Assembly (NCBI RefSeq): GCF_900089605.1
Contig: NZ_LT594324.1
Coordinates: 2,852,001 to 2,916,000 of the forward strand
Source: Micromonospora narathiwatensis
GTDB taxonomy: Bacteria; Actinomycetota; Actinomycetes; Mycobacteriales; Micromonosporaceae
Direction of reading: 5' to 3'
Length of the DNA stretch: 64,000 nt
Shown here piece by piece: positions 1-28,562 of this stretch. The position numbers and the translations under genes are program-made. The notes under the pieces were generated by a model that was not told the origin of the DNA, searched no databases, and saw only the letters and a program-made list of their open reading frames with translations. Every line of letters begins with the position of its first letter. Position 1 is the first letter of the stretch.

Positions 1-3000
1 TCCTCGCGCAGCCGCGCCAGATCCCGGTTGGACTCCGTGGCCCGTTCGAGGAAGGAGACCAGGCCGGTGGCGTGCTCCTGCCAGCGGGCCGAGTCCCCGT
101 CGGCGCGGCTCTGCACGCTGAACCGGAGCTGCCCGTCGCGCTCCTCGACGGTGGTGAACAGCTCGCGGGTCTGCCCGTCGGGCACGATCACCGGCATCAT
201 GAAGAGCACGTCGTGCAGCTCGACCACCCGACCGGCGGCCTGCTCGGCCACCGCCGCGTTGACCAGCTCCAGGTAGGTCGTCCCCGGGACGAGGCCGTGC
301 CCCATGATCCGGTGCTCGTCGACGATCCAGCTCTCGGCGGTGCTCAGCGTGGTGGCGTACGTCCGGGACTTCCCGGTCGAGGCGACCAGCCGGTGCAGCA
401 GCGGGTGCCCGGCCAGCGTCGTACCGCCGTGCAACCGCTCGACGAGGCCGGCGGCCATGCCGGTGTTGCGCCAGGTGTCCCAGTTGACGGCGGCGACCGG
501 TGCCCCGGTGGTGGCACGCCGCCACTGGGCGAACACGTCCAGGAAGGCGTTGGCCGCGCAGTAGTCGCTCTGCCCCGGGCCGCCGAGCAGCGCGGTGAGC
601 GAGGAGCAGAGCAGCAGGAAGTCCAGTTCGTCGGTGCCGCAGACCGCGTCCAGGTTGAGCGTGCCAACGGTCTTGGCGGCCAGGACGTCCGCCACGTCCT
701 GCGCGGACTTGACCGCGATCAGGCCACGGGACGGGAGCCCCGCCGCGTGGATCACGCCGTGCAGCCCGCCGCCGACCGCGCGCAGCCGGTCGACCGCGCC
801 GGCCAGGGCGTCCCGGTCGGTGACGTCGGCCTCCAGCACGATCACCCGGGCGCCCAGGTCGCGGAACTGCTCAAGGCGGCGGATCCGCCGGCTGGTGTCG
901 TCCTGCTCGCCGTGCCCGGCCAGCCAGGCGGGCCACTCCGCCTCGGTCGGGAAGGCCGAGCGGGTGAGCAGCCCGAGCACCGGGGCGTCGACCGCGCGGG
1001 TGATCTGCTCGGCCAGGGCCAGGCCGACGCCGCCGAGGCCACCGGTGATCAGGTAGACGCCGCCGGGGCGCAGCCGGCCGCCCACCGCTCCCGGGGGGTC
1101 CAGCCGGACCGCCTCGAAGGCGCGTACCCACCAGTGCCGGCCGCGCAGGGCCAGCTCCCGTTCGGCGGCGGGCGCGGTCAGCCGGGCCAGGACGGCGGCG
1201 GCGGTGCCGGGCCACCGCCGTCCGGTGGACCCGGCCGGGCCGGTCGGCGTGCCCCCGCCGGTGAGGTCGGCGCCGGTCAGGTCGAGCACCCGGCAGGTGA
1301 CGTCCGGCACCTCCTGCGGGATGACGGTGGTGGCGCCGAGCAGCGGGGCGTTCTCGGGCTGGAGGTCCTCGTCGCCGGTCACGCCGAACAGGCCCCGGCT
1401 GAGCACGTCGAACTCGACCGGGCCGGTAGGCTGCACGTCCCCGACCGCCTGGGCCAGGGCCAGCAGGCTGTCGAAGCCGAACCGGCGGGCCCGGTCGACC
1501 CGGGCCGCGTCCAGCCCGTCGGCCGGCTCGACGGTCAGGCTCCACAGGTGCACCACCCGGACCGTCCCCGGGGCGTACGTCTCCAGCGACTTGAGCAGGC
1601 CGGCGTGCTGATCCCGGCTGGTCGGGTCCAGCGCCCAGGCCCGATCGCCGGTCTCCCGCAGCTCGTCCCCGGCGCTGACCCGCACCACGACGGCCCCACC
1701 GCCGGCCAGTCGCGCCGCCAGTTCGGCGCCGAGGGGCAGCTCGGCGCCGAGCAGCACCCAGATGGTCGCCCCGTCGGCGGTGCCGCCGACCGCCTCGGCG
1801 GCCGGCGTGGTCAGCCGCCGCCAACCGGGTACGTGGAACCACTCCGCGTCCGCCCCGCTGGTCAAGGCACGGCGCGGCGCCGGCGTGGTCTCCGGGTCGA
1901 TCCAGTAGCGCTGCCGCTGGAAGGCGTACGTGGGCAGGCGCACCAGCCGGCGGGCCGCGTCGCCGTCCCGGGTCGTCCAGTCGACGGGCACTCCGGCGGA
2001 CCAGAGATCCCCCAGCCCGGCCAGCAGGTACTCGTGATCGTCCCGTCGCTCGTCCGGGTGCCGTACCGAGCCGGCCACGGTCCGCCGCTCGTGCCAGGCC
2101 CGGTGCTGGCGTACGAAATTGCGCAGCGTCTGCCCCGGGCCCACCTCCAGCAGCGCCAGCTCCTCGTCGGCGAGGAGCACGTCCAGGGCGTCGGCGAAGC
2201 GCACCGGCGCCCGCAGGTGCCGACCCCAGTACGCCGGATCCGTGGCCTGCTCGTCGGTGATCCACGCGCCGGTCACGTTCGACACGAACGGAATCGCCGG
2301 TGGGTGCAACGTGACCTGACGCACCGCCTCGACGAAGGGCGTCACCGCCGCGTCCATGCTCGGCGAGTGGAACGCGTGCGAGGTCCGCAGCCGACGACGC
2401 GCCACCCCGGCCGCCGCCAGCCGCCGCTCCAGCTCGTCGACCGCCGCCGTCGGGCCGGCCACCACACACAGTCCGGTGGAGTTCACCGCGGCCAGGCACA
2501 GCTCGTCGGTCAGCCAGCCGGCCACCTCCGCCTCCGGCAGGAACACCGCCAGCATCGACCCGGTCGGCATCGACTGCACCAACCGGCCCCGGGCCGCCAC
2601 CAGCGCCACCGCGTCCTCGAGGGAGAACACTCCGGCCAGGCAGGCGGCCACGTACTCGCCGACGCTGTGCCCGACCATCGCCGCCGGACGCACGCCCCAC
2701 GACATCCACAGCCGGGCCAGCGCGTACTCGACCAGGAACAGCACCGGCTGGGTGATCGAGGTACGGGCCAACGCCCGTGCCGCCTCGGCCGGCTCGTCGT
2801 CGACCGCGAACAGCGGCACCCGTGGGTCCTCCCCCAGGTGCGCGGCGAACAGTTCGGCACAGCGGTCCAGCTCCACGGCGAACGCCGGCACCGACCGGTA
2901 CAGGTCCCGGGCCATGCCCACGTACTGCGCGCCCTGGCCGGGGAAGAGGAACGCCACCGGCGTGTCCCGCCCGGCCGGCGTGCCGGTGCCCGCCGCCGCG

Positions 3001-4556
3001 ACCTGCCGCAACGCGCCGACCAGGTCGGCGGCCTCCCGACCGACCACGGCCGTCCGGTGCTCGAAGGCCCGACGCCGGCTGGCCAGGGTGTACGCCACGT
3101 CGTCGAGGTCCGCCTCGGGGTGGGCCGCCAGGTGGTCGGCGAGCCGACCGGCCGCCTCGGCCAGCGCCGGCGCCGACCGGGCCGACAACGGCAGCACCCG
3201 GGGCACGGCACGGTCGGCGGCCCCGGCCGCGGCCGGCTGCCCGGCGGGCGCCTCCTCCAGGATCACGTGCACGTTGCTGCCACCGATGCCGAACGAGCTG
3301 ACCCCGGCCCGACGCGGCGCCGCCCGCCGGGGCCACGGCCGCAGCTCGGCGTTGACGAAGAACGGGCTGCTCGGCAGCGCCAGCTCCGGATTCGCCCGGG
3401 TGTGGTGCAGGGTCGCCGGGATGGCCTCGTGCCGCAGCGCCAGCACCGCCTTGATCAGGCTGGTCACCCCCGCCGCCGCGTCCAGGTGCCCCACGTTGCT
3501 CTTCACCGAACCGATCGCGCAGTAGCCGACCCGGTCGGTGTGCTCCCGGTACGCGCGGGTCAGCGCCGTGATCTCGATCGGGTCGCCGAGCGCGGTGGCG
3601 GTGCCGTGGGTCTCCACGTAGCCGATGCTGTCCGCGTCCACCTCGGCCACGGCCAGCGCCTCGGCGACGACCTGCGCCTGACCGTCCACGCTGGGCGCGG
3701 TGTAGCCGACCTTCAGCGAGCCGTCGTTGTTGACCGCGGTGCCCAGGATGACCGCGTCCACGGTGTCTCCGGCCGCGCGGGCGTCGGCCATCCGCCGCAG
3801 CACCACCACGCCCGCGCCGTTGCCGGCGACGGTCCCCTGCGCCTGCGCGTCGAAGGGCCGGCAGTGCCCGTCCGGGGAGAGAATGCCGCCCTGCTCGTAG
3901 AGGTAGCCGCCGTGCAGCGGCACGCTGACCGAGACCCCGCCGGCCAGCGCGATGTCGCACTCGCTGTTGAGCAGGCTCTGCACCGCCAGGTGCACCGCGG
4001 TCAACGAGGTGGAGCAGGCGGTCTGCACGGTCATGCTCGGCCCGGTCAGGTCCAGCTTGTACGACACCCGGGTGGCCAGGAAGTCCTTGTCGCTGGAGAT
4101 CAGCGTCTGGTAGCTGCCGGCCGAGTCCACGGCACGCTGGTTGGCGAGCAGGTTGAACAGCAGGTACGAGTTGAGGCTCGCCCCGGCGAAGACGCCGATC
4201 CGCCCGTCGAAGGTCCTCGGGTCGTACCCGGCCGACTCCAGCGCGGTCCAGACGCATTCCAGGAAGACCCGGTGCTGCGGGTCGAGCACCTCGGCCTCGC
4301 GCGGGTGGAAGCCGAAGAAGCCCGCGTCGAACCGGTCCGCGTCCGCGAGCACCCCCTTGGCCCTGACGTAGTTCTCCCGCGCGGCCAACTCCGGGTCGAC
4401 CCCGGAACCGGTCAGTTCCTCGTCGGAGAGGCTGACGACGCCCTCCCGGCCGGCCGCGAGGTTGGCCCAGAGGGTTTCCACGTCGGGGGCGCCGGGAAAG
4501 CGCCCGGCCATCCCGATGACGGCGACCCGGTTCAGGTCTCCGGTTTCGTCTGACAC
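1..4556 (-). CDS. Type I polyketide synthase, KS-AT-KR-DH, C-terminus beyond window
   Basis: This is the fourth gene of the assembly line; it extends the peptidyl chain left by the serine NRPS module. It starts at a GTG at 4556 (SDETGDLNRVAVIG) with AGGTGAGG just upstream, 16 bp after the NRPS stop. The frame stays open to base 1, so the protein is partial. Domains seen: KS at about 10-430 with active Cys in QTACSTS (near 180), AT at about 520-835 with GHSVGEY and HAFH (malonyl type), a structural half-KR, then a KR at about 1170-1350 with TGGLGGVG and catalytic Tyr in SDYCAAN. A dehydratase follows the KR, with hot-dog motif H-RIM-G-HGLV-P near residue 1417. The KS is expected to accept from a PCP. 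DH after KR is an uncommon order. ACP, second DH half and any later module are not visible. Confidence 0.93.
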   Translation of the reverse strand, partial: MSDETGDLNRVAVIGMAGRFPGAPDVETLWANLAAGREGVVSLSDEELTGSGVDPELAARENYVRAKGVLADADRFDAGFFGFHPREAEVLDPQHRVFLECVWTALESAGYDPRTFDGRIGVFAGASLNSYLLFNLLANQRAVDSAGSYQTLISSDKDFLATRVSYKLDLTGPSMTVQTACSTSLTAVHLAVQSLLNSECDIALAGGVSVSVPLHGGYLYEQGGILSPDGHCRPFDAQAQGTVAGNGAGVVVLRRMADARAAGDTVDAVILGTAVNNDGSLKVGYTAPSVDGQAQVVAEALAVAEVDADSIGYVETHGTATALGDPIEITALTRAYREHTDRVGYCAIGSVKSNVGHLDAAAGVTSLIKAVLALRHEAIPATLHHTRANPELALPSSPFFVNAELRPWPRRAAPRRAGVSSFGIGGSNVHVILEEAPAGQPAAAGAADRAVPRVLPLSARSAPALAEAAGRLADHLAAHPEADLDDVAYTLASRRRAFEHRTAVVGREAADLVGALRQVAAAGTGTPAGRDTPVAFLFPGQGAQYVGMARDLYRSVPAFAVELDRCAELFAAHLGEDPRVPLFAVDDEPAEAARALARTSITQPVLFLVEYALARLWMSWGVRPAAMVGHSVGEYVAACLAGVFSLEDAVALVAARGRLVQSMPTGSMLAVFLPEAEVAGWLTDELCLAAVNSTGLCVVAGPTAAVDELERRLAAAGVARRRLRTSHAFHSPSMDAAVTPFVEAVRQVTLHPPAIPFVSNVTGAWITDEQATDPAYWGRHLRAPVRFADALDVLLADEELALLEVGPGQTLRNFVRQHRAWHERRTVAGSVRHPDERRDDHEYLLAGLGDLWSAGVPVDWTTRDGDAARRLVRLPTYAFQRQRYWIDPETTPAPRRALTSGADAEWFHVPGWRRLTTPAAEAVGGTADGATIWVLLGAELPLGAELAARLAGGGAVVVRVSAGDELRETGDRAWALDPTSRDQHAGLLKSLETYAPGTVRVVHLWSLTVEPADGLDAARVDRARRFGFDSLLALAQAVGDVQPTGPVEFDVLSRGLFGVTGDEDLQPENAPLLGATTVIPQEVPDVTCRVLDLTGADLTGGGTPTGPAGSTGRRWPGTAAAVLARLTAPAAERELALRGRHWWVRAFEAVRLDPPGAVGGRLRPGGVYLITGGLGGVGLALAEQITRAVDAPVLGLLTRSAFPTEAEWPAWLAGHGEQDDTSRRIRRLEQFRDLGARVIVLEADVTDRDALAGAVDRLRAVGGGLHGVIHAAGLPSRGLIAVKSAQDVADVLAAKTVGTLNLDAVCGTDELDFLLLCSSLTALLGGPGQSDYCAANAFLDVFAQWRRATTGAPVAAVNWDTWRNTGMAAGLVERLHGGTTLAGHPLLHRLVASTGKSRTYATTLSTAESWIVDEHRIMGHGLVPGTTYLELVNAAVAEQAAGRVVELHDVLFMMPVIVPDGQTRELFTTVEERDGQLRFSVQSRADGDSARWQEHATGLVSFLERATESNRDLARLRE

Positions 4557-4572
4557 CTGCCTCACCTACCGT

Positions 4573-7500
4573 TCATGCCCGCGCCCGACGAGCGGCCGCC
4601 TGTTGACGTCGACTCAGGGACTGCCGGCGGCTCTCCGCCCGATCCCGGGCGTCGGCCAGCACGTTTTCGCCGCCGCCGGCCCGGTTGAGGTGACCGGCCA
4701 GCGCGCCGACGGTGGGGAACTGGAACAGCTCGACCAGCGCCACGTCCCGACCGACCGCCGCGACGAGCCGGAGACGTACCTCGGCCATCAGCAGCGAGTG
4801 GCCGCCCAGTTCGAAGAAGTTGTCGTCCACCCCGACCCGGTCCACGCCGAGCAACTCCCGCCAGATGCCGGCGACGGTCCGCTCCAGCTCGCCACGGGGG
4901 GCCACGTACGGGCTGCGCAGCTCCGGGCGGGCCAGCTCCGGCTCGGGCAGCGCCCGCCGGTCGACCTTGCCGTTCGGGGTGAGCGGCAGGGCCGGCAGGG
5001 TGGTGAAGACCGACGGCACCATGTACTCGGGCAGCCGCTCCTTGAGCTGCGCGATCAGCTCACCGGCGCCCGGCACGGCCGGCCCGACCAGGTACGCCAC
5101 CAGCCGGGTGTCCCCGGCGTGCGTCCGGGGCACCACGACCGCCTCGGTGACCCCGTCGCACCCGGTCAGCGTCGCCTCGATCTCGCCCAGTTCGATCCGG
5201 AAGCCGCGCAGCTTCACCTGGTGGTCGAGGCGGCCGAGATACTCGATCGCCCCGTCGGCGCGGATCCGGCCCAGGTCGCCCGTCTTGTAGAGCCGGGCCG
5301 GCGGCCGGTCCGCGTCCCGGTCCCCGTCGGCGGCCGGGCTCCCCGTTAGGCCGTCCCGCCGTCCGGTGCCGGCGGTGGCGAACGGGTCGGTCACGAACCG
5401 CTCGGCGGTCAGCTCGGGGCGGTTCAGGTAGCCGAGCGCCACGTTGACCCCGCCGATGTGCAGCTCGCCGGGCACACCCACCGGGACCGGCTCCAGGAAC
5501 CGGTCCAGGACGTACACCTGGGTGTTGACGATGGGACGGCCGATGGGCACCGGCCGCGGGTCGTCCCGTCGGCAGGCCCAGAAGGTGACGTCGACGGCCG
5601 CCTCGGTCGGGCCGTACAGGTTGTGCAGTTCGGCCTTGGACGAGGCGAGGAACCGGTCCTGCAACTCGCGGGGCAGCGCCTCGCCGCTGCAGATCACCCG
5701 GCGCAGGCTGGTGCAGTCCGCCACGTCCGGCTCCCGCAGGAACGCCTGGAGCATGGAGGGTACGAAGTGCATGGTGGTGATCTGCTCGGCCTGGATCGTC
5801 TCGACCAGGTAGCGGCCGTCGCGGTGCCCGTCCGGGCGGGCCACCACCAGGGTCGCGCCGGTCATCAGCGGCCAGAAGAACTCCCAGACCGAGACGTCGA
5901 ACGAGTACGGCGTCTTCTGCAGCACCCGGTCGCCGGGGCCGAGGCCGTACGCGTCCTGCATCCAGAGCAGCCGGTTACGGATGCCGGCGAAGGTGTTCGG
6001 CACCCCCTTGGGCTGGCCGGTGGAGCCCGAGGTGTAGATGACGTACGCGACGTCCGCGCCGCGTACCGGGGTGGCCGGATCGTCGTGGGCGTCGTCGGTC
6101 GTCGCGGTGAGCAGTTCGTCGGCGTACCAGAGCGGCCCGTCCCAGGAGAGCTTCTCGGCCAGCGGCCGCTGGGTGAGCACCACCGCCGGGTCGGCGTCGT
6201 CGAGCATCAGCGCCACCCGACCGGCCGGCAGTCCCGGGTCGACCGGGACGTACGCGCCACCGGCCTGCCAGATCGCCAGCAGGCTGACCACCAGCTCGAC
6301 CGAACGCTCCTGCACCAGGCCGACCAGCACGCCGGGGCCGACCCCGGCGGTACGCAGTCGCCGGGCCAGCCCGTTGGCCAGCCGCACCAGTTCGCCGTAG
6401 CTGACCGTCCGGTCCGCGAAGCGCAGCGCCGGCAGCTCCGGCGTCCGGCGGGCCCGCGCCACGATCTGCTCGTGCACCCAGCCGGCGTCGGGCCACTGCC
6501 GGGCCTCGCCCCGGGACAGGGCCAGCACCGCGCGCCGCTCGTCGGCGTCCAGCAGCGGCAGCTCGTCGACCGGGGTCTCCGGCCGCTCGACGACCAGCTC
6601 GATCACCCGCCGGAAGTGGCCGGCCAGCCGGGCCATCGTCCCGGCCTCGAAGAGGTCCCGGTCGTACTCGAACCAGCCGCTCAACCCGCCCGCGTCGTTG
6701 AAGAACTGCAGCTCCAGGTCGAAGCGGGCGCCCTGGGCGCGCAGCGGCAGCCGCTCGAACTCCACCCCGGCCAGGGCCAGGGTCGGCAGCGGGTCGCTCT
6801 GGTACGACAGCCCCACCTGGAAGATCGGCGGCCGGCTCAGGTCCCGGGCCGGTTTCAGCTCCTCGACCACCTTCTCGAACGGCACCCGCTGGTGGGCGTA
6901 GCAGCCGAGGCAGGCGTCCCGGACCCGGCCCAGCACCTCGGCGAAGGTGGGGTTGCCGGCGAGGTCGGCCCGGACCGGCAGGGTGTTGACGAAGAAGCCG
7001 ATCAGCGGCTCGACCTCGGCCCGGTCCCGGTTGGCCAGCGGTACGCCGACCACCACGTCGTCCTGCCCGCTGTAGCGGTGCAGCAGGACGCCGAAGGCGG
7101 CCAGCAGCGCCATGTACGGGGTGGCGCCGTGCCGCTTGCCGAGCGCGCCCAGCGCGGTGAGCACCGGTTCCGGCAGCTCGAACGGGTGGGAGGCGCCCCG
7201 GAAGCCCTGCACCGCCGGCCGGGGCCGGTCGGTCGGCAGGTCCAGCACGGCCGGCGCGCCGGTCAGGTGCTCCCGCCAGTACGCGAGGTCCGCCGACAGG
7301 TCCTCCCGGCGCAGCCAGTCCTGCTGCCAGGCGGCGTAGTCGCCGTACTGGACGGCCAGCTCGGGCAGCGCCGGCCGCGCGCCGGCGACCAGGGCGGCGT
7401 ACCGGGTGGAGAGTTCGCCGAGCAGCACCCCGACCGACCAGCCGTCGGAGATGAGGTGGTGCATCGCCACCCCGAGCACGCAGTCGTCCGGGCCGAGCCG

Positions 7501-7962
7501 CAGCAGGGCCAGCCGCAGCAGCGGGCCGGTGGTGATGTCGAACGGCTCACGCAGCTCGGCGAGGATCCGCTCCTCCAGCTCGTCACCGTAGGGTGCCGTG
7601 CCGGACAGGTCCGTCTCGGGCAGCGGGAGGTCGAGACCTGCGCGGACCACCTGCACCGGGCGTCCGTCCCGCAGCTCGAACGTGGTCCGCAGCGACTCGT
7701 GCCGCTGGACGACCCCGTTGACGGCCTGGCGCAGCAGCCCGGTGTCCAGCGGGCCGCGGATGCGCACCGCCGCCGGGATCAGGTACGCCGGGTTCCCGGG
7801 CCTGAGCTGTTCCAGGAACCAGATGCCCTGCTGCATGACGGAGATCGGGAAGACGTTCTCCGCCCGGGTGGGCCGTGCCTGCCCGCGTTCCCGCAGCATC
7901 TTCTCGAACAGTGCCCGCTTCTCCGGGGAGAGCGAGGCGAGCCGTGCGTCGAGGTCGGTCAT
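4573..7962 (-). CDS. Nonribosomal peptide synthetase module, C-A-PCP, predicted serine
   Basis: This 1129-residue single module adds one amino acid to the polyketide chain. The condensation domain (about 30-460) carries the HHxxxDG motif as HHLISDG. The adenylation domain (about 480-1000) has YTSGSTGQPKG, YGPTEAA, YKTGDL and LTPNGKVDR. Reading the ten pocket positions by the GrsA alignment gives D-V-W-H-I-S-L-V-D-K, which matches the serine signature known from EntF (DVWHLSLIDK) apart from conservative changes. The carrier domain has the phosphopantetheine motif FELGGHSLL. The N-terminus (about 1-30) looks like a short docking segment. The start is an ATG 1 bp beyond the upstream PKS stop, so the genes are almost certainly cotranscribed. 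No epimerase, methyltransferase or thioesterase domain is present. Confidence 0.95.
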   Translation of the reverse strand: MTDLDARLASLSPEKRALFEKMLRERGQARPTRAENVFPISVMQQGIWFLEQLRPGNPAYLIPAAVRIRGPLDTGLLRQAVNGVVQRHESLRTTFELRDGRPVQVVRAGLDLPLPETDLSGTAPYGDELEERILAELREPFDITTGPLLRLALLRLGPDDCVLGVAMHHLISDGWSVGVLLGELSTRYAALVAGARPALPELAVQYGDYAAWQQDWLRREDLSADLAYWREHLTGAPAVLDLPTDRPRPAVQGFRGASHPFELPEPVLTALGALGKRHGATPYMALLAAFGVLLHRYSGQDDVVVGVPLANRDRAEVEPLIGFFVNTLPVRADLAGNPTFAEVLGRVRDACLGCYAHQRVPFEKVVEELKPARDLSRPPIFQVGLSYQSDPLPTLALAGVEFERLPLRAQGARFDLELQFFNDAGGLSGWFEYDRDLFEAGTMARLAGHFRRVIELVVERPETPVDELPLLDADERRAVLALSRGEARQWPDAGWVHEQIVARARRTPELPALRFADRTVSYGELVRLANGLARRLRTAGVGPGVLVGLVQERSVELVVSLLAIWQAGGAYVPVDPGLPAGRVALMLDDADPAVVLTQRPLAEKLSWDGPLWYADELLTATTDDAHDDPATPVRGADVAYVIYTSGSTGQPKGVPNTFAGIRNRLLWMQDAYGLGPGDRVLQKTPYSFDVSVWEFFWPLMTGATLVVARPDGHRDGRYLVETIQAEQITTMHFVPSMLQAFLREPDVADCTSLRRVICSGEALPRELQDRFLASSKAELHNLYGPTEAAVDVTFWACRRDDPRPVPIGRPIVNTQVYVLDRFLEPVPVGVPGELHIGGVNVALGYLNRPELTAERFVTDPFATAGTGRRDGLTGSPAADGDRDADRPPARLYKTGDLGRIRADGAIEYLGRLDHQVKLRGFRIELGEIEATLTGCDGVTEAVVVPRTHAGDTRLVAYLVGPAVPGAGELIAQLKERLPEYMVPSVFTTLPALPLTPNGKVDRRALPEPELARPELRSPYVAPRGELERTVAGIWRELLGVDRVGVDDNFFELGGHSLLMAEVRLRLVAAVGRDVALVELFQFPTVGALAGHLNRAGGGENVLADARDRAESRRQSLSRRQQAAARRARA

Positions 7963-7963
7963 C

Positions 7964-12792
<4,829 letters not shown>

Positions 12793-12796
<4 letters not shown>

Positions 12797-15700
12797 CCCT
12801 GACGCCTTTCATCGATCTGGGTGAGCTTGGCCAGCAGGAGCGCCTCGACGTCGTCGTCGGAGAGCTGCTCCAGCTCCGTGGCCAGGTCGTCGTCGGCCGG
12901 CGCGGCACCCACTCCGGCGGGTGAACCGCTGCCGGCCCCCGACGTGACGGCGGTGGTGGTCGCCGGGCCGGCTGCCGGGGGCCCGTCGGCGGCGGGTTGG
13001 GCCGCGAGCGGGATGTCCATCCGCTCGGCGAGGAACGGAACCAGCGCGTCGATGGTGGGGAACCGCCACGCGATGGTGGCGGAGAGTTCGACGTCCAGGG
13101 ACGTCTCCAGCCGCTTGCGCAGCTCCAGCGACATCAGCGAGTCGAAACCCATGCTGGCCAGCGGCGCGGTGACGTCGACCCGGGCGACGTCGAGCTTGAG
13201 CACCCGGGCCACCTCCCCGGCCACGTGCTGGGTCAGCAGGTTGCGTCGGCGGCGGCCCGGTTCGACGGTGAGCAGCCGCTGGCGTACCTCGCCGGAGCGC
13301 TGCCGTTCCGCGGCGGCCGGCGTGCCGTCCGCCGCGACCAGGTCGGCCAGGAGCGCCGGCAGCAGCCCGCCGGTGGCCGCCGCGCGGAGCCGGTCCCGGT
13401 CCACGGGCAGGACGGCGGCCTGGGCGGCCGGGGTACGCACCAGCCGGTCCAGCGCCTCGATGCCGTCGCTCGGGTCGATGCTCACGATGCCCTGCCCGGC
13501 GAGCTGGCCGCCCCGGTCCGGGCGGGCCGCCAGACCCGCCTCCGACCAGGGACCCCAGTTGACGCTCAGCGCGGCCCGGCCCTGGCCCCGGCGCAGTCGC
13601 GCGAGGCTGTCCAGGAAGGCGTTCGCGCTGGCGTAGTTGGCCTGGCCCGGGGAGCCGAGCAGCGCGGCGGCCGAGGAGAAGAGGACGAAGAAGTCCAGGT
13701 CCTTGTCGAGGGTGGCCCGGTGCAGGTGCCAGGCGCCGTCCACCTTGGGCGCGGCGACCGCGCGGAACCGGGCCCGGTCGAGCTGGAGCATCAGCCCGTC
13801 GTCGAGCACACCGGCGGAGTGCACGATGCCGGCCAGCGGCGGCAGCTCCCGGTCGATCCCGGCCACCACGGCGGCGACCTCGTCGTAGCGGCCGATGTCG
13901 GCGTGCCGGACCTGGACGTCGACGCCGCGTCCGCGCAGCTCGTCGAGGATCCGCCCGGCCGCCGCCGAGGGCCGGCTGCGGCCGAGCAGCACCAGGTGCC
14001 GGGCGCCGCGGTCGGCGAGCCAGCGGGCGGTACGCAGGCCGAGGGCGCCGAGACCACCGGTGATCAGGTACGTGGCCGCCGGCCGGACGGGGACCTCCCC
14101 CGGCGGTACGACCGCCTCCCGCACGTCCGGCCGCAGCACGATCTTGCCGGTGTGCCGGGCCTGCGCCATCTGGCCGAACGCCTGGGCGGCGTCGGTGTAG
14201 CCGAAGGTGGTGACCGGCAGGGCGGAGAACTCGCCGTCGGCGAAGCCCCGCCGCACCCCGGCGAGAAGGCGCGCGATCAGCTTCGGCTGCTCGGCGAAGG
14301 CGCGTTCCAGGTCGACGGCGAGGAACGACCGGTTGTGCCGGAGCAGCTCCAGGCCAAGGTGGCTGTTGGCGTAGATGTCCTGCTTGCCGATCTCGACGAA
14401 CCGGCCGTTCGGGGCGAGCACGCGGAGGCTGCGGGTCAGCGCCTCGCCGGTGAGCGAGTTGAGCACGACGTCCACGCCCCGGCCGTCGGTCAGCGCCAGC
14501 ACCTCGTCGGCGAAGCGCAGCGACCGGGAGTCCATGACGTGCTTGACGCCGAGGCCGCGCAGCAGTTCCCGTTTCTCCTCGCTGCCGGCGGTGGCCAGCA
14601 CCTCGGCCCCGTTGCGGCGGGCCACCTGGAGGGCGGCCAGCCCGACGCCGCCGGTCGCCGAGTGGATCAGGACGGTGTCGCCCTCGCCGAGGTGGCCCAG
14701 GTACTCCAGGCCGTAGAGCACGGTGAGGAAGGCGATGGGGATCGCGGCGGCCTGCTCGTCGGTGAGCCCGTCCGGGACGCCGGCGACCAGCTCGGCCGGC
14801 GTGGTGGCGTACGCGGCCATGCTGGACGGGGCGACCGCCATCACCCGGTCGCCGACCCGGTGGCCGGTGACGCCCGCGCCGACCGCGGTGATCCGGCCGG
14901 CGCACTCGCCGCCGAGCGGCACGATGCCCGGGGGTACGCCGGGGCAGATCTCCATCGCCTTGAGGACGTCGTTGAAGTTGAGCCCGGCGGCGGTGACCTC
15001 GATCTGCACCTGGCCGGGACCGGGCGGGGTCCGTTCCCAGAGCACCGGGGTCAGGCTGCCCAGGTGTCCCCGCAGGGACAGGAGGCGGTGATTGCCGTCG
15101 GTCCCGTCGAACGGGTGCGGCCGCAGGTCGGCGTCGGTCGGGGCGGGGGCCCGCCAGGGGGCCAGCCGGGGGGTGTGGCGCCGCCCGGCCCGGAGCGCGA
15201 CCTGCTCTCCGCCGGCCCGGTGCAGCAGTTCGTCGGCGAGGCCGGCGATGGTGTGCGCCTCGGTGGCCGGGTCGAGGTCGACAATGGTGGGGCGCAGCTC
15301 GCCGTGTTCCAGGGTGACCACCCGGGCCAGCCCCCAGAGACCGGCCTGGGCCAGCGCCGGGGTGCCGGGCTCGCCGGCCACCACCTGCGCGCCCCGGGTG
15401 ACCAGCACCAGCCGGGGCGACCGGCCGGCGGCCCCGGTGAGGGCCTGGACCAGGTGCAGGACGGCGACCGGGCCGAGCAGTTCGATCCGGTCGAGTTCGG
15501 CGTCCCGCCCGCCGGCCGGGGTGGCGTCGGTGGCCGGGTCCGCGACGGCCGGCTGGCGTTCTCCCCGAGCGGCGTCGGCGAGGGCATGTTCGGTGAGCGC
15601 CGTGTCGAGGCTCCACGCGTGCACCACCCCGGCGCATGGTTCCGGCCGGGCCGCGCGCAGCTCGGTGAGGAGGGTGACGAAGTCCTCCGGACGCGCCGGG

Positions 15701-18700
15701 TCGATCTCGTACCGGTCCGGGGCCGCCTGCCGGTAGGCGTCGCCGGGGGCGACGGTCACGGTGGCCACGCCCCGGCCGGCCAGCTCGGCGCGGAGTTCGG
15801 CGCCGACCGGGTCGGCGTCGGCGAGCAGCAGCCACCAGCCGGCGGCGGCGGTCTCCTCCGGCTGGTCGGCCGTCTCCCGCCAGGAGAGTTCCAGGAGAGA
15901 CTCGGCGACCCGGTCGGCGGCGGCACCGGCCAGCCGCTGGAGCCTGACCCCGGTGATCTCGCCCGCCGGTGCGCCGGCCGCGTCGTAGAGCACGACCCGG
16001 GCGTCGGTGATCTCGGGCGCCCCGACGCTCGCCCCGTCGACCACGGCGTGCGCCCACCTCGGCACCACCCGCTCGGCGGCGAGCCGGAAGCGAGCCACCC
16101 CGACCGGCAGGTACGTCCCGGCGTCGGTGCCGTCGCCGGTCAGGGCGGCCGCCAGCACCTGGAGGCAACTGTCCAGCAGCGCCGGGTGGACCAGGTACGG
16201 GTCGTGGTCCCCGGTCAGCTCGGCCGGGTCACGCAGCTCGGCGAGCGCCTCGTGCCCGTCCCGCCGGATCGAGCCGACGCCCTGGAAGGCGGGGCCGTAG
16301 CGGAGCCCGGAGCGGTCCAGCCGGGCGTAGTGCTCGGCGGCGTCCAGCGGCTGCGCGCAGCGGGCCCGTACCGTGGCCAGCGGCTCGGCGGTCGCGTCCG
16401 GCTGGTCGGGGGCACCGGCGCCGTACCGGCCGTGGGCCACCTCGCGCCACGTCCCGTCGGGCTCGGTCGGGCCGCGGCTGTAGATCCGCAGCGCGCCGCC
16501 GGCGCCGGTCTCCGGCAGCAGGACGAGTTGGAGGGTGTCCTCCTCGGCCAGTTCGTCCACGACGGTGATCCGGGTCAGCTCGATCCGCTCGACGACGGCG
16601 GTCGGGTCGTCCAGCAGTCGCCGGGTGGCCGACAGAGCGGCGTCCAGCAGCAGGCTGGCCGGCAGGACCGGGGTGTCCTCGACCACGTGGTCGCGCAGGT
16701 AGCCGAAGCCGGCCAGGTCGATCCGGGCGCTGAAGTGGTGCCCGCCCGGCTCGGCGGCGGAGCGGACGTACGTCTCCAGCACCGGGTGTCCCCGATGGCC
16801 GGTACGGCGCGGTCGCGGGTACTCGTCGGTGATCCAGTGCCGGTCCCGTTGCCACGGGTACGCCGGCAGGGCGACCATCGGCACGTCCGGCCCGTGGACG
16901 CGGCGCCAGTCGACCGGGTGGCCGGCGGTGTAGAGGCGGCCCAACTCCCCGAGGATGGTGGCGTGGCCGGACTCGTCGCGGCGCAGCGAGCCGACGACGA
17001 CGCCCTCGCGCTGCTGGCGGGCGATCCGCTCGGTGACCGGGTCGCCGAGCATGGCGTGCGGTGAGATCTCCACGAAGATGTCGTGCCCGGCGTCCACCAG
17101 GCCGGTGACGGCGGAGTCGAAGAGGACCGGCTGCCGCAGGTTGGTGGCCCAGTACCCGGCGTCGAGCGCGGTGCCCTCGATCGGGCGGGCGGTGACCGTG
17201 GAGATGATCGGCACGGTGGCCGGCCGTGGGGTGAGCCCGTCCAGCAGCGCGCCGAGTTCGGCGCGCAGCGGTTCCATCTGCGGGCTGTGCGAGGCGTAGT
17301 CGACCGATTCGAGCAGCCGACAGAAGATCCCCTCGGCCTGGACCGTCTCGGCGAGGGCGGCCAGCGCCGTACCGTCGCCGGAGAGCACGGTGGACTCCGG
17401 GCCGTTGCTGGCGGCGACCGAGACGGCGCCCGGTTCGCGCTCGGCGAGCAGCCGCTCGGTCCGGTCCAGCGGAAGCCCGATCACCGCCATCCGTCCGTTG
17501 CCGATGGCGGCCCGGATGACCCGGCCGCGCTGCCAGGCGACCCGCATCGCGTCGGGGACGCTGAGCGCGCCGGCGACCTGGGCCGCGGCCACCTCACCGA
17601 CGGAGTGCCCGACCACGGCGGCCGGCTCGACACCCCAGGAGCGCCACAGCGCGGCGAGGGCGATCTGCACGGCGGTCAGCGTCGGCTGGGCCACCGCCGG
17701 GTCGCTGAGCAGTTGCTCGTCGGCCCGGCCGGTGACCAGGTCGAGCAGGGACCAGTCGACGTACTGCCGCAGCGCCCGGGCGCACTGCTCCAGGGCGTCC
17801 CGGAAGACCGGTACGGCGAGCAGGTCGTCGGTGAGCGGCCACCAGCGCGGGCCCTGGCCGGAGAACATGAAGACGGGCTTCGGGTGCCGGCCGACCCGCC
17901 GGCCGCCCCAGGAGAGTCCGGCCCGTTCCTCGTCCGCCGCGTACGCGGCGAGCGCCTCCCGCAGTTGGTCGGGTGAGTCGCCGACGCAGGCCAGCCGCTG
18001 CTCGTGGTGGCTGCGGCGGGTGGCCGCGGCGGCGCAGACGGCGGCGAGCCCGGCGCCGGCGTCCGGCGCGGCCAGCCGGTCGGCGTAGCGGGCGGCCAGC
18101 TCGCGCAGCGCCTCGGGGGTACGGGCCGAGATGGCCAGCAGCCGGGCCGCACCCCGCTCGGCCGGCTCCGACCCGTCGGCCGCTGTTCCGTCCGACGCCG
18201 GGCCGTGCGCGCCGGTCCGACCGTTGACGTCGATTCGGCCGTTGGCATCGGCCCGGCCATTGACGTCGGCCCGGCCGTTGGTGCCGCTCCGGCCGTTGGT
18301 GAGCGGTCCGCCGGTCGCCGCCGCCGCGTCGGACGTCCGGGCGATGCCGGCGGCCCGGGGCGACTCGCCGAGGACCAGGTGCGCGTTGGTGCCACCGAAG
18401 CCGAAGCTGCTGACCCCCGCCACGGCCGGGGCGTCCGGGGCGGGCCACGGCTGGCGCCGGTCGGCCACCCGGAGGGCGAGCCGCGCGAACGGGATGTGCG
18501 GGTTGGGCTGCTCGTAGTGCAGGCTCGGCGGGATCTCCCGGTGCCGCAGGACCAGCGCGGTCTTGATCAGCCCGGCAATGCCGGCGGCGGCCTCCAGGTG
18601 CCCGAGGTTGGACTTGACCGAGCCGACGAGCAGGGGCTGTCGCGGGTCGCGGTCGACGCAGGCCACCGCGGCCAGCGCCTTGGCCTCGATCGGGTCACCG

Positions 18701-21700
18701 AGGAGGGTGCCGGTGCCGTGCGCCTCGACGTACCCGACCCGCTCCGGCGGTACGCCGGCCCGCTCGTACGCGCTGCGCAGCACCGCTTCCTGGGCGTGCG
18801 GGTTCGGCGCCATCAGCCCGTTGGTCCGGCCGTCCTGGTTGACCGCTCCGCCGAGGATCACCCCGTAGATCGGATCGTGGTCGCTGACCGCCCGGGACAG
18901 CGGCTTGAGGACGACCACTCCCGCGCCCTCGGCCCGGACGTAGCCGTCGGCGCGGGCGTCGAAGGTCTTGCAGCGCCCGTCGCCGGCCATCGCGCCGGCC
19001 TTGCTGAAGTTGATCGCCAGTGCCGGGGAGAGGACCACGTTGACCCCCCCGGCGACGGCCAGCGTGCAGTCGCCCCGGGCCAGGCTGGCCACGGCCTGGT
19101 GGACCGCGACCAGTGAGGAGGAGCAGGCGGTGTCGACGGCGATGCTCGGGCCGCGCAGGTCGAACAGGTACGACAGGCGGTTCGCCGCGATGCTGAACGC
19201 GTTGCCGGTGCCGGTGTAGGCGTCCACCCGGTCCAGGTCCTGGAAGGTCAGCTGCCCGTAGTCGTTGGTCGCGATGCCGACGAACACGCCGGTGGCGGAG
19301 CCGGCCAGGTCCTCGGCGACCACACCGGCGTCCTCCAGCGCCTCCCAGGTCACCTCGGCGAGGAGCCGTTGCTGCGGGTCCATCCGGGCGGCCTCGTGCG
19401 CGGAGATGCCGAAGAAGTGCGGGTCGAACTTGTCGATCCGGTCCAGGAAGCCGCCCCACCGGGTGGTGGTCCTGCCGGGTACGGCCGGGTCGTCGGTGTG
19501 CAGTTCCTCGACGTCCCACCGGTCGGCGGGCACCTCGCGGATCGCGTCGCGCCCCTCGGTCAGCAGCCGCCAGAAGCTCTCCGGGCCGTCCACGCCACCC
19601 GGGAAGCGGCAGCCGATGCCGATGATGGCGACGGGTTCGGGCTGGCCCGCCGTACCCGCGTCACCGGCCCCGCCGGCGGTGGTCGCCGCCGCGCCGGGGC
19701 GGACGGCGGCGTCGCCGGCGGTGGTGGTGGCCGGGCCGTCGGAGGCCGGGGTGGCGCCGGAGGCCGGTTCGCTGAGGAACGCGGCGAGCGCGTCGATCGT
19801 GGGGTACTCCCAGATCAGGGTCGAGGAGAGTTCCCGGCCGAGCCAGCCCTCCAGCTCCCCGACCAGACCGACCAGGTCGACCGACTGCAGGCCGTAGGTG
19901 GCGATGGGCCGGGTCGGGTCGACCGCCCGCGGGCTGACCTTCAGCCGGGCGGCGAGCGTCTCGACGAGACGCCGTTCGACCTCGGCCCGGCCGGGCGTGC
20001 CGGCGGGCGCCGGGGGGACGGTCTCCGCCCGGCCGGGACCGGCGGTGACGCGCTCCGGGTCGGCGGCGCTCCAGCTCGCCAGGATCTCCAGGCGACCGGC
20101 GAGGTACGACCGGCGGGCGGCGTGCCGCTGGAGCTTGCCGCTGGACGTCTTGGGGATGCTCCCCTGTTTGATCAGGACCACGTCGTACGCCTGGAGACCG
20201 TGTTCCTGGGAGACGGCGCCCCGGATCGCCGCGATCAACCGCTCGGCGTCGAACCGGAGCCGGCTGCCGCCGACCTCGTGGATGACGACGAGCTGCTCCT
20301 CGCCGTCGACCTCCACCGAGCAGGCCACACCGCAGCCGGGCCGCAGGGTCGGGTCGCTCTGCTCGACCGTGAACTCGATGTCGCTGGGGTAGTGGTTCTT
20401 GCCGGCGATGATGATCAGGTCCTTGTGCCGGCCGGTCACGAAGAGTTCCCCGTTGTCGTCGACGAAGCCGAGGTCGCCGGTACGGAGGAAGGGCCCGTCG
20501 CCGGTGCCGGCGATCCGTGCCCGGAAGATCTGCTCGCTCTCCTCGGGACGCCGCCAGTAGCCCTGGGCGACGCTCGGGCCGCCGAACCAGATCTCACCGA
20601 CCCGCCCGGCCGGGAGCCGCTCGCCGGTTGCGGGGTCGACGACGGCCAGCTCGTGGCCGGCGGCGGACGGTCCGCAGCTGACCAGGGTCCGGCTCTCCTC
20701 GTCGGGGCCGGCGTCGATCGCCCGGTTGCCGGCGAGGTCGGCGGCGCGCACGCGGCGGATGCCGGGCTCGGCCCCCGCGAGCCCGCCGGCGACGAAGAGG
20801 GTCGCCTCGGCCAGTCCGTAGCAGGGGTAGAAGGCACTGCGCCGGAATCCGCTGGGGGCGAACGCCTCCACGAACCGGTCGATGGTCTCGGCCCGGACCG
20901 GCTCGGCGCCGCTGAACGCCAGGCGCCAGCTGCTCAGGTCCAGCGCGGCCCGCTGCTCCGGGGTCGTCTTCGCCACGCAGAGCTCGTAACCGAAGTTGGG
21001 GCTGCCGCTGAGCGTGCCCCCGTACGTCGAGATGGCCTGCAACCACCGGACGGGTCGCTTGAGGAACGACGTCGGGGACATGAAGGTGGCGGAGAAGCCG
21101 GCGTAGAGCGGTTGCAGCATCGAGCCGATCAGCCCCATGTCGTGGTACGGCGGCAGCCAGCTGATCAACCGGGTGTTCTCGACGTCGGTGACGAAGCGCT
21201 GGTTGGTCACCTCGAGGTTGGCCAGCAGGTTGCCGTGGCTGAGCACCACGCCCTTCGGCCGGCCCGTCGAGCCGGAGGTGTACTGGAGGAAGGCGATGTC
21301 GCCGCCGTCGAGGTCGGGCTCCCGCCACCCCTCGGCGACGGCGTGGTCGATCCGGTCGACGGCCTCCCAGATCAGCGACCCCAGGGCGGGGGCGAGCGCG
21401 GTGATCGGGTCGGCCATCGCGATGATCTCGGCCGGGGCCAGCACGATGGCGGGCTGCGCGTCCTCGATCACGCCGATCAGCCGGGGCAGGGTCCGCTTGA
21501 GCAGCACCGGGTTCGGCGGATACACCGGTACGGCGATCACCCGGGCGTAGAGGCAGCCCAGGAACGAGGCGAGATAGTCCAGGCCCGGCGGGCAGACGAT
21601 GAGCGCCCGGTCGCCCTCGTTCACCCGCTCCCGCAGGGTGGCCGCAATGGCCCGTGCCCGCCGGTCCATGTCGGCGTTCGAGATGACCAGTTCGTCATCC

Positions 21701-21876
21701 TCGCCGTCGACCAGGAACCGATACGTCGACGCCTCCGGATGTCCCAGAAGAACAGCCCGAAACTGGTCGACGAGTGTGCGTGGCTTTCGGGAGCGGCCGG
21801 TGGACCCGGCCGGTCGCCCCACCGGGCCAACCTGGCTCTCATGTACGTCGTCTCGCCCTGGGACCGACATGCTCAC
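12793..21876 (-). CDS. Starter fatty acyl-AMP ligase fused to a fully reducing PKS module
   Basis: This protein of about 3027 residues should prime and start the pathway. Domains in order: FAAL (about 35-600; [31 protein letters not shown]), ACP (YGLQSVDL near 662), KS (745-1165, DTACSSS), AT (1330-1640; GHSVGE and YASH, methylmalonyl type), DH (from about 1700), structural KR, ER (2270-2590; HSATGGVG), KR (2605-2800; [11 protein letters not shown] and Tyr in GQANYAS), ACP (MGFDSLM near 2912) and an acidic docking tail. The expected step is adenylation of a free fatty acid, loading on ACP, one extension and full reduction. The DH motif reads [10 protein letters not shown], with Asp replacing the usual Gly. 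An NGR hexapeptide repeat lies between KS and AT. The start is chosen at GTG 21876 because AGAAGGA lies 8 bp upstream; ATG 21870 is an alternative. Confidence 0.93.
18218..18305 (-). repeat. About 4.8 tandem copies of an 18-bp unit inside the PKS KS-AT linker
   Basis: Consecutive 18-bp units resembling CGGCCGTTGACGTCGGCC (plus strand) fill this stretch. On the coding strand they give a hexapeptide repeat of the form N-G-R-(A/I)-D-(V/A), followed by a low-complexity segment. The repeat stays in frame and lies between the KS and AT domains of the starter PKS, where a flexible linker is tolerated. Confidence 0.85.
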
Positions 21877-22517
21877 AATCCGGTTCCTTCTGACGTCTGC
21901 TCCACGGATCAGCGGGGTCCGGGCGGGCGAAGACATTGCTCCACAATCACGCCCCGGTAAGGTCGCGAAAAGCCGCACACGAATTCCACGACGTGTTTTG
22001 CATTCACCCCCGCCGATGATCCTTTCGATCGCGACGCCAGCATGGCAGCGCCACCAGTCCAATGTCAACGATTGCTGGTCGACTCCGATGAAACCCCTTG
22101 TGAACAGCAGCTTCAGCCCACCCCTAGCGACCGACGGGGGCACCCCTACCCACCATTAAGCTGACCCCTGACCGGGATCGAACCAAGCCTCCACTAAGGA
22201 GGGAGTCGGGCGATCCGCCGCGGTGCGAGATTCGTCGCACAATGGCTGACCCCACACACTCCCGGTCGCACCACGACGTCGTCGGCAATTATGGGAATTC
22301 GGAATGAAATCTGGCGCTCGACCGGCACGGCCACGGGGCGACGTCCGCCGCGTCGTTTCGGCGAATGATGGAAGCGCGCCCATTGACAGAAACAGCAGGT
22401 CGGCATGACGGGCACGGCCGGTGGGTGGATGCGGTATGCCGGGTCGACACGACGACATCGGCGGCGCCGGAGGGTGAACCGAATCGGCCGGGCGCACGAT
22501 GTCGCCGGCGAAAAGGA
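21877..22517. other. Intergenic region upstream of the PKS operon
   Basis: This stretch of about 640 bp separates the PKS operon start from the amine oxidase terminator. It is less GC-rich than the neighbouring genes. The open frames crossing it give low-complexity Arg/Pro-rich proteins without recognisable features, so I call no gene. It holds a candidate promoter for the PKS operon (22039-22068) and a small hairpin, GTGCGA-n6-TCGCAC, near 22224-22241. Confidence 0.6.
22039..22068 (-). promoter_or_regulatory. Candidate promoter of the PKS/NRPS operon
   Basis: On the minus strand a perfect TTGACA (22068-22063) is followed after 18 bp by CATGCT (22044-22039), a weak -10. Transcription would start about 155 nt before the FAAL-PKS start codon. 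Only the -35 is strong, so this is tentative. Confidence 0.35.
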
Positions 22518-22596: not shown

Positions 22597-24207
22597 CTAC
22601 GGCCCCGCGACCTCCTTGGCGGCGCGCTCGCCGGATTCGACCGCCCCGTTGAGGTAGCCGAAGTACTCCACCGAGGTGTGCTCGCCGGCGAAGTGGACGT
22701 TGCCCTCGCGGGTGGCCTCGACGCCGAAGAAGCGGGTGGACTGGCCCGGCTTGAGGGACGAGTAGGCGCCCTTCGACCAGGGGTTGAGCGGCCAGGCGTC
22801 CCGGTACGCCCGGCCGTTGTAGGCGGCGGTGATGCCCGGGTAGATCGGCTCCAGCTGGTTCAGGAACGACGTGACCTGGGCGGCCGGTGCCGCGCCGAAC
22901 GCCGCGCCGGTCCACGCCCTGGTCTGGCTGCCGCCGGGGAACTCGCAGAGCACGCCGGTGGTGGTCGACTGGTTGACCGCGTCGTCCCAGGCACACTGGA
23001 AGCCGGTGACGTTGGTGTAGGTGGAGCCGCCGTAGCCCTGCGCGACCCAGGGTCGGCTGGTGAACTGGACGTGGAGCTTCGCGTTGCTGCCCAGGTCGAA
23101 CTCGTTGACGGAACGCATCTTCACCGTCGAGAACCCGGCCCTGGACAGGTCACACTCGCGCAGCGTGGTGAACGGCAGTGCGAGGATGACCTTGTCGGAG
23201 GTCACGTCCGTGTACGTGGTGCCGGTCTGGAAGGTGCAGGTCACCGAACCGTTGGCGTTGGCCTTGACCGCCACCAGCTTACGGTCCAGCGTCACGGTGC
23301 CCGCCGGCAGCTGGGCGACCATGGCGGTCAGCAGCTGGTCGTTGCCGCCGATGATCGTGTACTTCTCGTCGCCGCCGGTGAGCGGGGCCAGCGAGTTCGG
23401 CCCGTTCCAGCCGAGCAGGTAGATCAGGTTGAGCGCCGACTGCTGGTCCGGGTCCATGCCGTACTCGGCGACGACGTTGCTCTGCATCAGCTTCGCGAAG
23501 CGGCTGGAAAGCCCTCCGGGGATGTTCGCGTCCAGCCACTGGTTGACGGTCTGATTGTCCAGTTGCAGCCCCGCGGCGGTGTAGCTGTCGTATCGCTGCG
23601 GGTAGGGAGCGGCCTGCACGGCCGACTTGAACGCCTGGTAGACCTGACCCCAGTCGGCGTTCGCCGCGCTGTAGGGATAGTTTGCGCCGTCGATCCAGTA
23701 CTTGTCCCCGCCGGGCGGCTGGTTGCCGCCGTTCACCAGGCGCAGGCTGAGGCCGAGGTTGTTGGCGAGGCTGCGGATCGTGTTGTGCTCGGTGTTGATG
23801 AACGCGCCGCCGTGCTCGACGACGACCCCGTCGTCGAAGAAGCCGCGCAGGGTGTGGCAACGGCCACCGATCCGGGAGCTGCCCTCGTAGACGGCGGCCC
23901 GGATCCCCTTGACCTTGTAAAGCCAGTGGGCGGCGCGGATGCCGGCGAGCCCCGCCCCCACGATGGTCACCGACGGTGGCGGGGCGGGTGCGGCGGCGGC
24001 CGCGGCGGGCCGGGGCAGGCCGGCGGCCGAGGCGACGGCGGCCGCGCCGACGACCGCGGCGCCGCCGAGCAGCCTGCGCCGGGACAGCCCGGCGGCGCGC
24101 ATCTCGATGACCTCGTCGACCGGGATCCCGGTCCGTTCGGATTCGGCGTGCGCGGCGAACGTCGCACGCAGTTGGCTGGTGAGTTGTGTTCGACCCCTGG
24201 AACCCAT
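22597..24207 (-). CDS. Tat-exported flavin-containing amine oxidase
   Basis: This 536-residue protein belongs to the monoamine/polyamine oxidase flavoprotein family, which oxidatively deaminates amines to aldehydes with release of hydrogen peroxide. A twin-arginine signal is seen at 42-47 (SRRRLL), followed by a hydrophobic Ala-rich segment to about residue 72, so it should be exported folded with FAD. The dinucleotide motif VGAGLAG lies at 83-89, and the C-terminal FAD motif reads HFAGEHTS-n-GYLNGAVESG. The start ATG has GGAGG 6 bp upstream. A 14-bp-stem terminator follows. It stands alone, but it lies next to the SIS/kinase genes and a polyamine-type transporter, so an amine or polyamine substrate is plausible. 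The exact substrate cannot be read from the sequence. Confidence 0.9.
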   Translation of the reverse strand: MGSRGRTQLTSQLRATFAAHAESERTGIPVDEVIEMRAAGLSRRRLLGGAAVVGAAAVASAAGLPRPAAAAAAPAPPPSVTIVGAGLAGIRAAHWLYKVKGIRAAVYEGSSRIGGRCHTLRGFFDDGVVVEHGGAFINTEHNTIRSLANNLGLSLRLVNGGNQPPGGDKYWIDGANYPYSAANADWGQVYQAFKSAVQAAPYPQRYDSYTAAGLQLDNQTVNQWLDANIPGGLSSRFAKLMQSNVVAEYGMDPDQQSALNLIYLLGWNGPNSLAPLTGGDEKYTIIGGNDQLLTAMVAQLPAGTVTLDRKLVAVKANANGSVTCTFQTGTTYTDVTSDKVILALPFTTLRECDLSRAGFSTVKMRSVNEFDLGSNAKLHVQFTSRPWVAQGYGGSTYTNVTGFQCAWDDAVNQSTTTGVLCEFPGGSQTRAWTGAAFGAAPAAQVTSFLNQLEPIYPGITAAYNGRAYRDAWPLNPWSKGAYSSLKPGQSTRFFGVEATREGNVHFAGEHTSVEYFGYLNGAVESGERAAKEVAGP

Positions 24208-26455: not shown

Positions 26456-26525
26456 GAGTCTTGCGCACGTTGACGCTCGTTGCAACACTCCGGTTCACTG
26501 TCTCGACTCCCGACAGGAGCGGCGA

Positions 26526-27638: not shown

Positions 27639-28562
27639 ATGAGCTCCACTCTCGCCCCTCAACGCGCCGCCCGCGCGGACGTCGGTCCACGCGGGCGGCG
27701 CGCGGCCCGACGTGAGCGGCTGCTCGGGCGGATGGCCACGCTCGGGCCCGGGCTGGGCTACCTGATCGTCTTCATGCTGGTGCCGCTCGCGCTCGTGCTC
27801 AGCTACACGCTGTTCCACCGGGGTCGCTTCGGCGGGATCGTCTACGAGGCCTCGGCGGAGAACTTCACCCGGGTCGCCGACGGTCTCTACCTCAACGTCG
27901 TCTGGACCTCGGTGAAGCTGGCCGGGCTCACCACGCTGTTGGCGCTGCTGCTCGGCTATCCGACCGCGTACCTCATCGCCCGGCTCCCCCGCCGCTGGCG
28001 CACCGTCGCGCTCGTCCTCGTGGTGCTGCCGTTCTGGACCAACTTCCTCATCCGCACCTACGCGTGGATCATCCTGCTCAACAGCGAGGGCGTGATCAAC
28101 CGGACGCTGACCGGGATCGGGATCATCGACCGGCCGCTGGAACTGCTCTACACCCCGGGCGCCGTCGTCGGTGGCCTGCTCTACGCGTACCTGCCGCTGA
28201 TGATCCTGCCGCTGTACTCGGCGATCGAACGCCTCGACCCGCAGCTCCGCGAGGCGTCGGCCAACCTGGGCGCCCGACCGGCCCGGACCTTCTGGTCGGT
28301 GACCCTGCCACTGACCCTGCCCGGCGTGCTGACCGGCTGCGTCTTCGTGTTCGTACCCAGCCTCGGCAACTTCGTCGTCCCCGAGCTGCTCGGCGGCGGT
28401 CGGACGGTGCTGGTCGGCAACCTGATCCGCGACCAGTTCCTCAAGGCGCGGGACTGGCCGTTCGGGTCGACCCTCGCGCTCATCGTGATCGCCCTGCTCG
28501 TGCTGCTGCTCATGGCGCAGGCCTGGGCGGCCCGACGACTGGCGGGCGGCAACCGTGCGTAG
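27639..28562 (+). CDS. potB: PotB-type ABC transporter permease
   Basis: This 307-residue inner-membrane protein is the first permease of the amine importer. After a basic N-terminus it has about six hydrophobic segments, beginning GPGLGYLIVFMLVPLALVL, and a cytoplasmic EAA-type loop LREASANLGARPARTFWSV that contacts the ATPase. This matches the usual PotB length and layout. The ATG follows the binding-protein stop with no gap, and its end overlaps the next permease by 8 bp, so translation is coupled. Confidence 0.92.
   Translation: MSSTLAPQRAARADVGPRGRRAARRERLLGRMATLGPGLGYLIVFMLVPLALVLSYTLFHRGRFGGIVYEASAENFTRVADGLYLNVVWTSVKLAGLTTLLALLLGYPTAYLIARLPRRWRTVALVLVVLPFWTNFLIRTYAWIILLNSEGVINRTLTGIGIIDRPLELLYTPGAVVGGLLYAYLPLMILPLYSAIERLDPQLREASANLGARPARTFWSVTLPLTLPGVLTGCVFVFVPSLGNFVVPELLGGGRTVLVGNLIRDQFLKARDWPFGSTLALIVIALLVLLLMAQAWAARRLAGGNRA

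Follow-up and report, generated by a model that had tools for sequence, protein, structure and literature searches.

The genome of Micromonospora narathiwatensis is a single 6.6-Mb contig, and the window, meaning the whole 64,000-nucleotide stretch of DNA analysed here, is G000:C1:2852001-2916000. Positions are given in window coordinates w, for which genome position = 2852000 + w, so that a base 0 exists; a further 32 kb to the left of the window was added to the analysis, giving 96 kb in total. A set of 11 genes, all on the minus strand, runs from window position 21876 to -19703 (G000:C1:2832297-2873876); the cluster extends about 20 kb beyond the left window edge, and the window holds its front half. 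The four genes in the window overlap or nearly abut: rakAB (12793..21876; FAAL-ACP-KS-AT-DH-ER-KR-ACP, loading module and module 1), rakC (7964..12796; KS-AT-KR-ACP, module 2), rakD (4573..7962; C-A(Ser)-PCP, module 3) and rakEF (4565..-1134; KS-AT-KR-DH-ACP, module 4, 1899 aa), all assigned with Pfam. The last of these, the fourth gene named in the initial annotation, is cut by the window edge, with 1..4565 inside and its terminal carrier domain to the left. The initial annotation had read FAAL-ACP-KS-AT-DH-ER-KR-ACP, KS-AT-KR-ACP, C-A-PCP and KS-AT-KR-DH, in this order, as one coupled operon, and both parts of this reading hold: every domain is found by Pfam, and the four genes all lie on the minus strand, where neighbours either overlap or are separated by a short gap.

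The longest rakAB frame (22143..12793) encodes 3116 aa, or about 3027 aa from the likely start, a Val codon near residue 90 that agrees with the end at 21876 originally assigned to the gene. The similarity of this frame to M. chalcea DSM 43026 begins at residue 83, and the M. chalcea frame opens just 12 codons before the start of similarity. For the FAAL-like acyl-AMP ligase domain (approximately 20077..21780; Pfam PF00501 and PF23024), the highest-scoring NCBIfam ligase models are those for fatty-acyl-AMP ligases, none of which reaches its cut-off, and the side-chain length is not readable from this domain. The first carrier (19774..19974; PF00550, E = 5.8e-12) lies between FAAL and KS, and the module 1 reductive loop (approximately 13540..16788, Pfam) comprises DH (16788-15916), ER (15021-14134) and KR (14076-13540), these limits also being approximate. 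The DH keeps its His and Asp, but within the His motif the usual Gly is replaced by Asp. The strength of the domain matches (e.g., KS, E = 6.3e-99) indicates that the open frames are not due to chance; the NCBIfam names Pks13, Pks2 and PfaA were set aside as family resemblance alone, below threshold.

The AT motifs are of the YASH type in RakAB, TSSHS in RakC and HAFHS in RakEF, by which the RakAB domain is predicted to be methylmalonyl-type and the RakEF domain malonyl. The signature residues of the RakD A domain, read by eye, are D-V-W-H-I-S-L-V-D-K; these support the Ser specificity proposed from the start. In rakEF the KR (468..1061) stands ahead of the DH, an unusual order, and only the start of the DH, with an HxxxGxxxxP motif, falls within the window (1..407); in both domains the residues that we take to be catalytic are kept. 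A Ser-type A domain is thus followed by KS-AT(malonyl)-KR-DH, the arrangement expected for a pentadienoate unit. Both the KR-before-DH order and the TSSHS motif in the second AT are common to this locus and the published rakicidin clusters; the motif was remarked on in Micromonospora sp. DSW705 as likely methylmalonyl (PMC5075396), and the domain order was pointed out as unusual in Streptomyces sp. MWW064 (PMC5073741).

Extending the sequence leftwards, as the initial annotation had advised, brought out a C-A(Gly)-MT-PCP and a C-A*-PCP-C protein (A* denoting a degenerate A domain), transporters, a thioesterase, RakN and a dioxygenase. These are encoded by rakG (-1229..-5956), rakH (-5959..-10644; G000:C1:2841356-2846041), an ABC transporter gene (-10641..-12371), a type-II thioesterase gene (-12325..-13095), rakN (-13223..-16120; G000:C1:2835880-2838777), a rakO-like dioxygenase gene (-16262..-17245; TauD Pfam) and an MmpL transporter gene (-17379..-19703). 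The signature residues of RakG, by eye D-I-L-Q-L-G-M-I-W, presumably specify Gly, so that rakG carries the Gly module with methyltransferase that characterises rakicidin clusters; the methyltransferase presumably acts on N. RakH ends in a condensation domain with HHxxxD, and no thioesterase domain is fused to it. RakN combines a condensation-like part with an A domain, and Pfam finds no carrier (T) domain in it. For the dioxygenase none of the nearest NCBIfam models (GntD, clavaminate synthase and VioC) reaches its cut-off; RakN and this Asn oxygenase-like RakO lie downstream of the assembly genes, again as in rakicidin clusters. RakO-like matches at E <= 1e-60 occur in 12 of 121 genus genomes, four of them at least 81% identical and the other eight 40-62%.

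On the other side, a flavin amine oxidase gene (22597-24207, minus strand) lies directly upstream of rakAB, followed by a SIS-domain gene (24329-25306, minus strand); in DSW705 this place is taken by a regulator, a monooxygenase and two unknown genes (PMC5075396). Both genes are probably outside the cluster because they have no match in the compared M. chalcea region. The flanks differ from those of M. chalcea: of 17 flanking frames compared, some of which are surely non-genes, none has a match in the 96 kb at E <= 1e-10. ABC importer genes (solute-binding protein and permease) occupy 26454-28562 beside the cluster, and ten selected frames in 33931-61313, including a glucuronoyl esterase with CBM2, an acetyl xylan esterase, GH67, GH43, a solute-binding protein and an aldehyde dehydrogenase, mark a probable xylan/glucuronoxylan utilisation region. 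Elsewhere in the genome, G000:C1:1936519-2031033 holds many more KS domains in frames of up to 5963 aa, so this genome contains at least one additional large modular PKS locus.

Compared by sequence, M. chalcea DSM 43026 has all 11 genes collinear with the locus at 78.5-87.7% (79-88%) identity, with 79% for rakAB, 86% for rakC, 86% for rakD and 84% for rakEF. Rakicidins A and B are reported from this strain, confirmed by HPLC-MS (PMC12916061). Compared by its published table, the rakicidin cluster of DSW705 also has all 11 genes in the same order (PMC5075396 Table 6), with similar protein sizes (aa in DSW705 versus here: rakAB 2944 versus 3116, or about 3027 from the likely start; rakC 1608/1610; rakD 1123/1129; rakEF 1883/1899; rakG 1517/1575; rakH 1563/1561; ABC transporter 570/576; type-II thioesterase 287/256; rakN 955/965; rakO 329/327; MmpL 771/774). 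The rakicidin D cluster of MWW064, which is more distant and was likened by its published description rather than by sequence, has the same six assembly proteins together with RakL, RakN and RakO (PMC5073741), and MIBiG is said to hold a rakicidin A/B cluster (PMC10232511). Here the six assembly proteins AB-C-D-EF-G-H stand in the published order and domain layout. Moreover, the AT motifs, the Ser of RakD and the Gly with methyltransferase of RakG lead to a predicted backbone R-C3-C3-Ser-C2-(N-Me)Gly-X, in agreement with Komaki et al., who list R-C3-C3-Ser-C2-Gly-X for rakicidins (PMC5075396 Table 5; PMC5073741 Table 5).

The 11-gene order, the DSW705-like sizes, the identity to M. chalcea and the Ser plus KR-before-DH step together make a rakicidin biosynthetic cluster in a further Micromonospora the best explanation of the locus as a whole, and we hold it with high confidence; the source strain would accordingly be predicted from its genes to make a rakicidin. 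The interpretation first given thus divides into two. The chemistry, a fatty acid extended with one full reduction, then a hydroxyl-bearing unit, Ser and a further extension, matches the rakicidin backbone as published (PMC5075396, PMC5073741). The view that the order belongs to no characterised pathway does not survive, since DSW705 has the same gene order with a known product (PMC5075396), and the lack of a recognised product is in substance contradicted by the collinear orthologue in the rakicidin A/B producer M. chalcea. The rakicidin cluster itself is already a known kind, and its product is recognised.

A loading/PKS part, a Ser module and a KR-DH step are common to APD clusters, and the locus could in principle specify a different cyclolipodepsipeptide of this class, of the vinylamycin/microtermolide, BE-43547 or boholamide type. 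Similar cores are present in A. viridilutea, K. griseola, S. alfalfae and one further genome (G325), where a PKS(KR-DH) follows Ser as it does here and where a Gly-type module and a second, terminal condensation domain are also shared. However, in these four relatives RakG and RakH are fused, the last A domain is intact (reading NEKLD at A10 in G325), and no RakN match is found in their genomes at E <= 1e-150. The vinylamycin type was rejected because a last A domain predicted for Val is expected there, whereas the RakH A domain is degenerate. BE-43547 clusters are described with Gly, Ser and Gly at m3, m4 and m6, whereas the locus here has the order Ser-C2-Gly-(Asn), one NRPS module (Ser) before rakEF and a gene resembling an Asn oxygenase, and this type was rejected as well. 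Another APD-class product is thus quite improbable. That the pathway has no known product could be entertained only in so far as the window stops short of the diagnostic second half, and it is practically untenable in view of the published rakicidin cluster of the same order and the collinear producer cluster in M. chalcea.

For the rakicidin cluster the following route can be proposed. A free fatty acid would be activated by the FAAL domain of RakAB, which would extend the acyl chain with a methylmalonyl unit and reduce it fully; RakC would add a second methylmalonyl unit, leaving a hydroxyl later used for ring closure. RakD would then add Ser and RakEF malonate, the KR and then the DH turning Ser-malonate into 4-amidopentadienoate. 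Formation of the pentadienoate from Ser and acetate is reported from 13C feeding, and the RakEF DH was proposed to remove the Ser hydroxyl as well (PMC5073741). RakG would next add N-methylglycine and RakH Asn, which a RakO-type dioxygenase would hydroxylate. As the A domain inside RakH is degenerate, the activation of Asn probably falls to RakN, acting in trans, and the ring is probably closed onto the fatty-chain hydroxyl by the terminal condensation domain of RakH, because there is no fused thioesterase. In the published route, Asn addition is assigned to RakH alone (PMC5073741), and in PMC5075396 the amino acid of RakH is an unpredicted "X" (Komaki et al.).

RakN matches at E <= 1e-250 are found in 5 of 160 genus genomes, the window's own included. 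In all five rakN-bearing Micromonospora genomes, M. chalcea and M. yasonensis among them, A3, A5, A7, A8 and A10 are missing from the RakH A domain, even when looser patterns are allowed, and RakN keeps all five motifs. The two proteins thus show what is expected of supply in trans, an in-line A domain without core motifs and a free A protein with them. Their TIGR01733 scores are 237.0 bits for RakH (cut-off 317.4) and 405.5 for RakN, as against 450.0 for RakD and 441.3 for RakG. The signature residues of RakN, by eye D-L-P-K-I-A-E-I-G-K, resemble the Asn code. Towards its N-terminus RakN is condensation-like, but the HHxxxD motif is absent there. A3, A5 and A10 are also missing from all seven best RakH relatives (67-97% identity) of the 120 listed, these not being all independent since at least three are M. 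yasonensis or M. chalcea proteins; a TGD match among the seven falls by eye in the C domain, and the relatives ranked next (39-45% identity) were left out of the motif count. In two more distant relatives (G047 and G138) the domain is intact, with TSGTTG as a variant motif, and the G047 genome holds a RakN-like match of 44% at another place; G471 was left out of this scoring because its contig ends. The absence of core motifs from RakH and the intact, carrier-free A protein RakN suggest that RakH and RakN share the Asn module, which would be loaded in trans.

Substitution rates give partial and mixed support for decay of the RakH A domain. Its dN/dS of 0.34-0.52 is higher than that of the RakD and RakG A domains (0.20-0.29) and of the first C domain of RakH (0.10-0.28), but rates alone do not single it out, as it overlaps with the RakH carrier (0.29-0.79) and terminal C domain (0.29-0.49). 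For RakN the values are 0.49-0.68 in the C-like part and 0.20-0.38 in the A domain. These ranges come from four comparisons per RakH or RakN domain, one for RakD and three for RakG, after three RakD rows that compared paralogues and one incomplete RakG row were removed. A tree built from 29 A domains places that of RakH with the Micromonospora RakD domains (local support 0.965, on a long branch), and the grouping with A. viridilutea RakD added has local support 1.000. The RakH A domain may thus have arisen by duplication of the Ser-type RakD A domain and have decayed since, subject to long-branch effects and a small sample.

It could be argued instead that the RakH A domain is active despite its unusual motifs and that RakN serves elsewhere, for example in repair or supply. 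The RakH frame is open in all five orthologues, and a dN/dS below 1 that overlaps with those of the carrier and terminal C domain agrees with continued function. Against this stand the absence of the five motifs in every orthologue and of A3, A5 and A10 in the best relatives, and the lower conservation relative to the RakD and RakG A domains; we regard a working RakH A domain as unlikely. A reciprocally decayed hydroxy-Asn module is the reading we favour as likely: RakH would carry a dead A domain derived from a RakD-A duplicate but retain a live C domain, carrier and terminal C domain, and RakN, in which the Asn A domain is live and the C domain dead, would load the RakH carrier directly in trans without a carrier of its own.

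In the albicidin, ramoplanin and enduracidin systems, a free A-T protein is described as standing in, in trans, for a dead A domain (PMC8949500). As in these systems, RakH and RakN would pair a dead in-line A domain with a live one on a separate protein, and the ramoplanin/enduracidin-type free protein has an N-terminal extension, as does RakN; unlike them, RakN has no T domain and has a decayed C-like part in front. The pathway section of PMC5073741, the only paper among the matches listed to name both RakN and rakicidin, gives RakN no role. The RakH/RakN split was not found in the literature covered, which extends neither to the boholamide paper nor to the main study of the biosynthesis (Villadsen et al. 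2017, 10.1038/nchem.2657), and no paper was found by text search that combines asparagine with an inactive adenylation domain; we make no claim that the split module is unpublished.

In a contig search with RakEF, the top identities among the best 80 of 571 stretches are to M. yasonensis (87%) and M. chalcea DSM 43026 (83%). At E <= 1e-80, a 530-residue RakEF piece (DH to ACP) has matches in 7 of 160 genus genomes: five, counting the window's own, at >=85% and two at 43%. In a class sample of 394 genomes it matches 3, one of them again the window's own and the remaining two at 66%. The core is thus uncommon and yet present beyond the genus, as also described in PMC5075396.

These results name a likely product for a locus flagged as unrecognised and add one more Micromonospora genome as a probable source of rakicidins, ring-shaped lipopeptides of interest for their hypoxia-selective toxicity and their activity on Gram-positive anaerobes (PMC12916061). 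If the split module is true, it would fit the unpredictable amino acid X of Komaki et al., RakH/RakN would be a carrier-free variant of the ramoplanin/albicidin type of trans-complementation, and RakN would be a natural free-standing Asn-loading enzyme for module engineering.
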